NCBI GenBank assembly: GCA_020061125.1
Contig: JAGUYV010000419.1
Span: 1-5,738 of the forward strand
Direction of reading: 5' to 3'
Length of the DNA stretch: 5,738 bases
Origin: a bacterium
GTDB lineage: Bacteria; UBP15; UBA6099; DSWB01
A model generated the notes under the pieces. The model was not told the origin of the DNA. It searched no databases and saw only the letters and a program-made list of their open reading frames with translations. How positions within the stretch are numbered: the stretch's first letter is position 1; every line of letters starts with the position of its first letter. The translations under genes were made by a program, and so were the position numbers. Shown piece after piece: positions 2,857-5,738 of this stretch.

Positions 2857-3627
2857 ATGGCGAAACCGGATGCAGACAACAAGGAACGAAACGGCGGGAC
2901 CGGGGACCAGGCGGCGCGCAACCGCGTGTCCGATCAGGTGCTTGCGCAGCTTGTGTCCATGATCGTGAGCGGCGAATGCGCGCCCGGACAAAAACTGCCG
3001 CCCGAGCGCGCGCTCGCCGAGCGGCTCGGGGTGAATCGCACCACGCTGCGCGAGGCCCTGCGCAGACTCGAAAGCATGGGTCTCATCGCCGTGCGCCAGG
3101 GCGGCGGCATCACCGTGCAGAACCCCGCCGAGTGCGCCACGCTCGAATATGCGGCGTTTCTCGTGCCGCAGGAACTCGCGGATGCGGACATGATTCTTAG
3201 CTTGGAACAGGCGCGCCGCGTGTTCGCGCTTCAAGCGGTCCGGCTGGCCGCGGAGCGCATCACGGATGAAGGCGCGGTGAGTCTCCACAAAATTATCGAT
3301 GATTTCCCCGGCGCTCCGGATCAGGACCTGCTATCGGGGCAATGGGATTTCCGCCTATTGTCGGAAATCGCGCGCCTGTCAGGAAACATGGCGTTCGTAT
3401 GTTATTTGAACACGATCCGAGACACATTCGGCACGATGCGGCTCGTGTATTCCGGCATAAGCGGCGAGCGGCTCAAAGCCCTGGCCGCGCTGTGCGCTAA
3501 AATGGCGCGCGCCATTGCCGCGGGCAAGAAAAAGAAATCCGTGAAACTCGCGGACCTGTTTCTCCAAGAACAGGCTGCGGCCCTGGCCGTATCGCTCAAA
3601 TCCGCGGCCGCGGGCAAGCGGCAATAG
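2857..3627 (+). CDS. GntR-family (FadR-subfamily) transcriptional regulator
   Basis: 256 residues, the usual size for this family. Residues 22-89 form the winged helix-turn-helix, with the classic order G39-E-C-A-P-G-Q-K-L-P-P-E-R-A-L-A, L57-G-V-N-R-T-T-L-R-E-A-L-R-R-L, G75-L-I and the wing R-Q-G-G-G-I. Residues 95-250 are an all-helical ligand-binding domain of the FadR/FCD type (R120/R121, D164, S175-G-N177). The His of the FCD 'FH' metal motif is Arg166 here and no C-terminal His is evident, so the domain probably does not bind a metal in the usual FCD way and may resemble FadR, which binds its ligand without metal. The ligand is unknown. The operator palindrome lies 20-38 bases upstream of the start. 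It leads a plus-strand set with a glycyl-radical-enzyme activase and an alcohol dehydrogenase, so it probably senses the substrate or an intermediate of that anaerobic pathway. The ribosome site (AAAGGGCGG, gap about 6) is moderate. Confidence 0.93.
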   Translation: MAKPDADNKERNGGTGDQAARNRVSDQVLAQLVSMIVSGECAPGQKLPPERALAERLGVNRTTLREALRRLESMGLIAVRQGGGITVQNPAECATLEYAAFLVPQELADADMILSLEQARRVFALQAVRLAAERITDEGAVSLHKIIDDFPGAPDQDLLSGQWDFRLLSEIARLSGNMAFVCYLNTIRDTFGTMRLVYSGISGERLKALAALCAKMARAIAAGKKKKSVKLADLFLQEQAAALAVSLKSAAAGKRQ

Positions 3628-3628
3628 A

Positions 3629-3657
3629 TTTATAAGGAATCCATTTTTTCATAGAAT
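3629..3657 (+). promoter_or_regulatory. Possible secondary sigma-70-type promoter before the activase
   Basis: The gap between regulator and activase is sharply AT-rich compared with the genes around it. TTTATA (3629-3634) and TAGAAT (3652-3657) sit exactly 17 bases apart, matching 4/6 and 5/6 of the sigma-70 consensus. It could let the activase and dehydrogenase be expressed separately from the regulator. No copy of the GntR palindrome overlaps it. AT-rich gaps throw up such matches by chance, hence the low confidence. Confidence 0.35.
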
Positions 3658-3699
3658 AAAAACAGGATGCGCAAAGCACGCGCGGGCGGAGGCCGGTTC

Positions 3700-4632
3700 A
3701 TGCGGGACAATGCGGTTCAGCCGGATTTCGGCATCGTGTTCGACATCCAGCATTATGCCGTGTACGATGGTCCGGGCATCCGCACCTGCATTTTTTTCAA
3801 GGGATGCCCCCTGCGGTGCGCGTGGTGCCACAATCCCGAGTCGCAGAAACTCAAGCCAGAGGTCTCGTATTTCAAGGACCGCTGCACCGCGTGCGGGGCA
3901 TGCGTGGAGGCGTGTCCCAACCGCGCGATCCGGCTTGTCAAAGGCCGGGTGTCGCGCGACGCGGACCGGTGCTCGGTGTGCGGGGCCTGCGCGGACGCAT
4001 GCTTGAGCCACGCCACGCAAATCATGGGGCGGCGCATGACCGTGGACGAAATCGTGGAAACCGTTGCGCGCGATAAGCCCTTTTACGACAACTCCGGCGG
4101 CGGCGTCACCATTTCCGGCGGCGAAGCAACCGCCCAGCATGAATTCCTGTTCTCGCTCTTGCGCGCTCTGCGGGATCATGAAATCCACACCGCGCTCGAA
4201 ACCTGCGGTTTTTTCCGATCCGACATTATTGAAGATCTCTGCGACCTGGTGAATTTGTTTCTGTTCGATTTCAAGCATTCGGACAACGACGAACACACCC
4301 GGCTCACGGGCGTTGGCAATGTCAGCATCATCCAGAACTTCCGCGCCCTTCTAGAGCGCGCGGGCGCGGCGCGCGTGCTGCCGCGCGTGCCCCTGATTCC
4401 GGGCGCAAACACGCACCCGCAAGCCATTGAGGGCATCATCCGCATACTGACCAGTTCGGGCTACCGGGGCGCGGCGCACCTTATGCCCTACAATTCCATG
4501 GCGCGCACAAAATGGGAAAAAATCGGCAGGGGCCGCGAATACACGGATTTCGGCGCGCTGCCTCCCGAAGACATCGATCGCATTTCCGCACAGTTCGCCG
4601 CGGCCGGATTTACGACACTGGTGAACCATTAG
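3700..4632 (+). CDS. Glycyl-radical-enzyme activating protein (radical SAM, with two extra 4Fe-4S clusters)
   Basis: 310 residues from the ATG at 3700. This start is chosen because GGAGG (3688-3692) lies 7 bases before it; an in-frame ATG at 3667 has no good ribosome site. The protein uses a reductively cleaved S-adenosylmethionine to install a glycyl radical on a partner enzyme in the cytoplasm, and is oxygen-sensitive. Visible features: Y22-D-G-P-G-I-R-T29 and F33-K-G-C-P-L-R-C-A-W-C-H-N-P, giving the radical-SAM C36-x3-C40-x2-C43; a ferredoxin-like insert with C62-x2-C65-x2-C68-x3-C72-P and C91-x2-C94-x2-C97-x3-C101; then S132-G-G-G-V-T-I-S-G-G-E-A for SAM binding. The ferredoxin insert separates it from pyruvate formate-lyase activase and places it with activases of dehydratases, decarboxylases, C-S/C-N lyases and fumarate-adding enzymes. 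I cannot tell which partner it serves, and no glycyl radical enzyme is present here. The dehydrogenase starts 20 bases after its stop, so the two form an operon. Confidence 0.95.
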   Translation: MRDNAVQPDFGIVFDIQHYAVYDGPGIRTCIFFKGCPLRCAWCHNPESQKLKPEVSYFKDRCTACGACVEACPNRAIRLVKGRVSRDADRCSVCGACADACLSHATQIMGRRMTVDEIVETVARDKPFYDNSGGGVTISGGEATAQHEFLFSLLRALRDHEIHTALETCGFFRSDIIEDLCDLVNLFLFDFKHSDNDEHTRLTGVGNVSIIQNFRALLERAGAARVLPRVPLIPGANTHPQAIEGIIRILTSSGYRGAAHLMPYNSMARTKWEKIGRGREYTDFGALPPEDIDRISAQFAAAGFTTLVNH

Positions 4633-4652: not shown

Positions 4653-5738
4653 ATGAACGGCGCGTTCAGATTTGCGGGAATGCCGGAGATCGTGTTCGGG
4701 CGCGGCCGGTTCCGGAGCGCTGTGGACATTGCGCGCGGATTCGGCGAAACCGCGCTGCTAGTCACGGGCCGCGGCTCTTATAAAACGCTCGGCTGCTGGG
4801 ACGAGTTCGCGGCGTCCCTGGACGCCTCTGGCATGACCTGGGCGCAAGTAACCGTGGGCGGCGAACCGTCGCCGGAAATCATTGATGAGGCCGTGACCGC
4901 GCACCGGGATTTGCGGCCGTCCGTGGTCGTGGCCGTTGGCGGAGGCAGCGTCGTGGACGCGGGAAAAGCCATCTCCGCCATGATGCGCCACGAGGGGTCC
5001 GTGACGGACTATCTCGAAGGCGTGGGCGTGCGCGAACCCACGGGCGCCAAGGTTCCGTTCGTGGCCGTGCCCACCACATCGGGCACGGGCAGCGAGGCCA
5101 CGCGAAACGCGGTCATTAGCCGCGTGGGGCCGGGCGGGTTCAAGAAATCGCTCCGGCACCACAATTTCGTGCCGGACATCGCGCTCATTGACCCGGACCT
5201 CATGGTCACATGCCCCCGTGACATCACGGCCGCATGCGGCATGGATGCATTCACGCAACTGCTGGAAAGCTTCGTCTCGACCCAGGCCTCGGCCATGACG
5301 GACGCGCTGGCGTTCAGCGGCATGCAGGCCGCGCGGGACAGCCTCGAAGCCGTGTGCGGCGAAGGTACCTATGTGCGCTACGGAGGCAAAGATCCTTATT
5401 TGGCAAGGGTCAGGCTCATAGCGACTACGGAACTGAATCCCTCCGAAATCACGCGGAAAAGACATCCTTTACTTCATTCTCTCTTGCAGCGGTCAGTTGT
5501 TATACCTCCTTTGAGAAAGCGCCGAAGAGAAATACCAGGACTGGTTGAACATTACATAAGCCAATACTGTCAGGAACTCCGCAAACAAATCGTTGAAATC
5601 CCGAGCGAGACTCTGAAGACTCTGGTTACCTACTCTTGGCCCGGCAATGATATAGAGCTTTCCACAACTCTGAAAAGAGCAGTGCTCGTGTCAGAAGGCG
5701 AAGTACTTCGACCGCAAGACATCTATTTCGATTTGAAG
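4653..5738 (+). CDS. Iron-containing alcohol dehydrogenase, N-terminal ~236 residues, fused in frame to a sigma-54 activator C-terminal fragment; runs off right edge
   Basis: The ATG at 4653 is preceded by GGAAAGG (4636-4642); the frame stays open for 362 codons to the window end. Residues 1 to about 236 are a group III (iron-dependent) alcohol dehydrogenase: F17-G-R-G, V95-G-G-G-S-V-V-D102 for NAD(P) binding, P140-T-T-S-G-T-G-S-E148, then G196-M-D-A-F-T-Q-L-L-E205. This family interconverts alcohols and aldehydes in the cytoplasm; beside a glycyl-radical activase it would typically handle an aldehyde made or consumed by the radical enzyme. Two oddities. The first metal-ligand pair is normally D-x3-H; here it is D198-x3-Q202, possibly a subfamily trait. 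More seriously, the remaining ~150 residues of a normal ~385-residue enzyme, which carry two further metal-ligand His, are absent. From about residue 239 the sequence is sigma-54 activator (separate entry). As it stands the dehydrogenase should be inactive. Confidence 0.82.
   Translation, partial: MNGAFRFAGMPEIVFGRGRFRSAVDIARGFGETALLVTGRGSYKTLGCWDEFAASLDASGMTWAQVTVGGEPSPEIIDEAVTAHRDLRPSVVVAVGGGSVVDAGKAISAMMRHEGSVTDYLEGVGVREPTGAKVPFVAVPTTSGTGSEATRNAVISRVGPGGFKKSLRHHNFVPDIALIDPDLMVTCPRDITAACGMDAFTQLLESFVSTQASAMTDALAFSGMQAARDSLEAVCGEGTYVRYGGKDPYLARVRLIATTELNPSEITRKRHPLLHSLLQRSVVIPPLRKRRREIPGLVEHYISQYCQELRKQIVEIPSETLKTLVTYSWPGNDIELSTTLKRAVLVSEGEVLRPQDIYFDLK
5364..5738 (+). pseudogene. C-terminal fragment of an NtrC-type sigma-54-dependent activator (AAA+), in frame with the upstream dehydrogenase
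   Basis: Residues ~239-362 of the fused frame read like the second half of a sigma-54-interacting AAA+ domain: T239-Y-V-R-Y-G-G245, V253-R-L-I-A-T-T259 (the strand usually written vRiIaaTn), P285-P-L-R-K-R-R-E-E-I-P-G-L (usually PPLReRxeDIxxL), Y327-S-W-P-G-N-D-I-E-L336 (usually WPGNvREL), then K341-R-A-V-L-V, a final G-E-V-L-R-P-Q-D and an open end. Walker A, Walker B and the GAFTGA sigma-54 contact loop all lie before this point in the family and are absent, so the fragment cannot hydrolyse ATP or remodel sigma-54 holoenzyme. The sensor II Arg position of the WPGNxREL motif is Ile334, which is odd even for an intact relative. G+C is about 47% (5401-5738), with ATA, AGA, TTA and CTT codons rare in the neighbouring genes, so this piece has a different origin from the DNA to its left. 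Any DNA-binding domain would lie beyond the window. Confidence 0.72.

Follow-up and report, generated by a model that had tools for sequence, protein, structure and literature searches.

Metagenome assembly is known to suffer from k-mers that genomes have in common, which can link those genomes and thereby produce chimeric contigs (PMC7299287). The DNA analysed here, which is the entire contig C351 (5738 bp, referred to as the window), resembles an inter-species chimeric contig of this type, in that halves from two organisms meet at a short common stretch near the contig end. Here, too, the true continuation begins another contig, and judged from sequence alone nothing essential differs. The first half corresponds to the iron-dependent alcohol dehydrogenases (Fe-ADH; PF00465 with PF25137) that are encoded beside glycyl-radical-enzyme genes, and is of the same type, except that its N-terminal half lies on C351 and its C-terminal half on contig C111. 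The second half corresponds to a Desulfomonilaceae membrane protein with cyclic-nucleotide (cNMP)-binding, AAA+ and polyferredoxin parts (L082–L098). It matches the AAA+ lid region of L082 at 92% identity, but comprises a 127-residue AAA+/lid piece alone, the N-terminal and membrane parts being absent from the genome. We conclude, with a probability of about 95%, that the 3′ end of C351 is an inter-species chimera and that the dehydrogenase-activator fusion is not real.

An open reading frame crosses the junction

The window belongs to an assembly (G000) that totals 4.12 Mb over 513 contigs, with a completeness of 78.8% and a contamination of 1.2%; its fragmentation suggests a mixed sample as the source. 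As a sequence-only reading of this DNA had described, the ORF at positions 4653–5738 (+ strand) crosses the junction with neither a stop nor a frameshift; it also stays open to the last base of the contig. A Pfam scan of this ORF assigns residues 12–181 to Fe-ADH, residues 192–239 to ADH_Fe_C, which breaks off at profile position 48 of 194, and residues 288–360 to AAA_lid_14. The sharp composition break that had been claimed at the junction is reproduced, with G+C falling from ~75% (5281–5340) to 57% (5341–5400), and then to 53, 43, 45 and 48%. The genome averages are a GC of 0.615 and a GC3 of 0.74 ± 0.10.

The dehydrogenase continues at the start of another contig

Residues 1–238 of the ORF are an Fe-ADH. 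The native N-terminal half occupies positions 4653–5342 (+; Pfam PF00465, E = 3.4e-42), and over the N-terminal 236 residues its identity to the dehydrogenases of the relatives G041, G005 and G001 is 57, 53 and 52%, respectively. The gene is complete in G041 and G005, while the G001 copy ends at its own contig end, well beyond the junction point; in all three, the dehydrogenase runs unbroken through that point. When the 394-aa G005 dehydrogenase is used as a query against the assembly G000, residues 4–241 align with C351:4662–5369 and residues 249–392 align with C111:3–434, the latter at 50% identity. Four dehydrogenase paralogues in the same genome are long open frames with only 31–34% identity to this query.

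The dehydrogenase frame of C111 is open from base 3, begins GMAYAALMSGVTLANAGLG, ends at a normal stop, and is followed on its 3′ side by a prolyl-tRNA synthetase-like gene. Set one after the other, C351 and C111 align continuously with the G005, G041 and G001 dehydrogenases, leaving a gap of about six residues relative to them, or roughly 16 bp, that is present in neither contig. Specifically, the Fe-ADH N-terminal domain is identified in C351 by Pfam, and the C-terminal part in C111 by full-length alignment with the G005 and G041 proteins. The first 120 bases of C111 and window positions 5201–5738 have no exact k-mer of at least 9 bases in common, indicating that the two contigs do not overlap there. 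The two halves agree in composition, with GC/GC3 values of 0.67/0.83 on C351 and 0.66/0.79 on C111. The organism's true gene would be an intact, ordinary Fe-ADH of about 390 aa, following a path from C351:4653 to about 5366, across the ~16 missing bases, and on through C111:1–443.

Two neighbours upstream of the dehydrogenase are a radical-SAM glycyl-radical-enzyme activase (3667–4632, +; Pfam Radical_SAM and Fer4) and a GntR/FCD-family regulator (2857–3627, +; Pfam GntR, E = 9.7e-23, and FCD). A homologue of the activase adjoins the intact G041 dehydrogenase, and a homologue of the regulator lies near it. The G041 set around the dehydrogenase comprises the GntR regulator, an 863-aa ORF and the activase; by its position, the 863-aa ORF is presumably a glycyl radical enzyme. 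In G041 this ORF sits between the GntR gene and the dehydrogenase, whereas window positions 2857–4632 hold the GntR and activase genes only. The locus thus differs from that of G041 in two respects: a contig break splits the dehydrogenase gene, and there is no glycyl radical enzyme gene between the GntR and activase genes. Several PFL-like genes are present elsewhere in the genome, on other contigs.

At the other end of the window, the gene at positions 2–2803 (− strand), which is cut by the contig start, encodes a large secreted/lipoprotein-like protein with repeated cysteine-rich C..D.DC.DG-type units and, in addition, an FGE-sulfatase domain. L081:3401–7219 encodes a further large secreted/lipoprotein-like protein with units of the same type. 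A large protein on C111 also carries cysteine-rich repeats of the same kind as the 2–2803 gene, consistent with one genome.

The tail resembles a Desulfomonile gene

The last ~380–395 bases of C351 almost certainly come from a Desulfomonile-like bacterium, as judged by similarity and composition. In particular, positions 5343–5738 are 80% identical in DNA sequence to L082, a contig of a groundwater Desulfomonile tiedjei MAG, over the whole length to the last base of the contig, and the encoded tail is 91–92% identical to the L082 protein. Other relatives of the tail, at 56–64%, are mostly MAGs named Desulfomonile, Desulfomonilaceae, Syntrophaceae or Deltaproteobacteria, while the tail matches the six other genomes of the order to which G000 belongs no better than about 36%. 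The best match among 99 genomes related to that of L082 is the same 80% match, with none near 100%. The tail has a GC of 0.47 and a GC3 of 0.46, with GC3 as low or lower in only 0.5% of 366 coding windows of the genome. Comparing the two halves separately, as the sequence-only reading had proposed, therefore places them in different organisms, with a 92% match of the tail to a Desulfomonile MAG and a GC3 of 0.46 versus 0.74.

Searches with the L082 (690 aa) and L083 (878 aa) proteins against the assembly G000 returned generic AAA+ or weak matches only, and no further real piece of the donor gene. A plasmid tblastn search with the tail returned generic sigma-54 activators alone, all at less than 60% identity, and a scan of viral contigs with the fused protein found no match. 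The donor organism was probably present in the same sample.

The tail proper (5370–5738, +; open at the contig end) corresponds to the C-terminal AAA+ part and lid of the donor protein. Members of the donor family are ~880–900 aa long and have three parts: a domain that binds cyclic nucleotides, an AAA+ module that is sigma-54-activator-like but degenerate, and a membrane polyferredoxin part of the Fer4_5 (4Fe-4S) type. The family ORFs of L082–L097 contain none of the three motifs GAFTGA, Walker B DE, and the FRxDL arginine finger, which are kept by most of the genome's own activators that could be scored; the tail has RHPLL where FRxDL is expected. Since these motifs are missing, the donor family is, by motif, not a normal (NtrC-type) sigma-54 activator, and what had been named half of a sigma-54 activator instead belongs to a membrane redox protein, as its degenerate AAA+ module. 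This identity is a side observation that does not affect the verdict on the contig. The family is possibly a redox-linked sensor, and a literature search found no description of its domain architecture. The member at L083:2083–4719 has all three parts and adjoins FlpD and HGD-D genes, and several family loci among L082–L097 have a normal, GAFTGA-bearing activator of 483–492 aa nearby.

The join lies at a short similarity between the two genes

Residues 231–238 of the ORF (LEAVCGEG, 5343–5366) fit both genes, within a junction zone (5343–5369, +) that is common to both in the same frame. The switch from dehydrogenase to AAA+ homology noted in the sequence-only reading is borne out, with the refinement that the two homologies share these residues instead of meeting edge to edge, which places the join somewhere within about 5343–5369. 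The counterparts of LEAVCGEG are LELVCGAG in the G005 dehydrogenase and LEAMCGEG in L082, both in the same frame; at the join, native L082 reads LEAMCGEGTYVRYGG and the window reads LEAVCGEGTYVRYGG. Positions 5343–5366 are identical to L082 at 20 of 24 bases and to G005 at 17 of 24. Compared directly at the join, G005 and L082 agree at 16 of 24 bases; among the 263,252 in-frame 24-mer pairs that the two genes can form, just 15 score this high. Because LEA(V/M)CGEG occurs in the two genes in one and the same frame, the false fusion is in frame, and a join at this coincidental similarity accounts both for its place and for the kept frame.

GGTACC (5364–5369) and GATC (5391–5394) are both present, as had been pointed out, and had been suggested as join points of a cloned-library chimera. 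Both are ordinary donor coding sequence (GEGTYV and KDP codons), so the cloning idea is rejected, and the common stretch of ~24 bp explains the join better.

A chimeric contig end versus alternative explanations

A chimeric contig was one of the options offered by the sequence-only reading, and it is strongly supported by the remainder of the dehydrogenase at the start of C111, the Desulfomonile-like tail, and the lack of any other donor piece in the genome. We propose that the assembly path would quit the dehydrogenase at the chance similarity of ~24 bp (5343–5369) and would then run into the gene of the co-sampled Desulfomonile-like bacterium until the contig ends. We infer that the step responsible was the assembler, acting through k-mers; template switching in amplification, which could also have made the join, is less likely.

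Real recombination in some cells, in which a Desulfomonile-like fragment joined by short homology would disrupt the dehydrogenase while other cells keep it intact, could likewise yield continuous in-frame sequence at a similarity of ~24 bp, as expected of a microhomology-mediated event. However, the intact remainder lies at the very beginning of a second contig in this assembly, nothing else of the donor gene is present in the genome, and the foreign part reaches the contig end within 400 bases, making recombination very improbable. Its more specific form, in which microhomology has joined a transferred Desulfomonile-type AAA+ fragment in frame to the N-terminal half of the dehydrogenase in a minority of cells and the intact population gave C111, is slightly less probable still. 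A genuine dehydrogenase-AAA+ fusion gene family, although compatible with the frame being open through the join, is scarcely credible, because the parts are two separate genes in every relative found, no intact homologue of this architecture turned up in the genomes searched, no genome of the order has one match spanning both parts, the AAA+ part starts past the Walker A/B region, and most of the dehydrogenase C-terminal domain is missing.

The sequence-only reading had considered a functional fusion unlikely, and we agree, attributing the fusion to a chimeric contig end. The finding is a quality warning only: the fused protein should stay out of databases as a gene family, and the end of C351, starting at about 5343 and running to 5738, should be trimmed off. 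As a worked example, it shows clearly how a chimera whose join falls on a short chance agreement at the protein level retains an open frame and thereby escapes frame-based checks.
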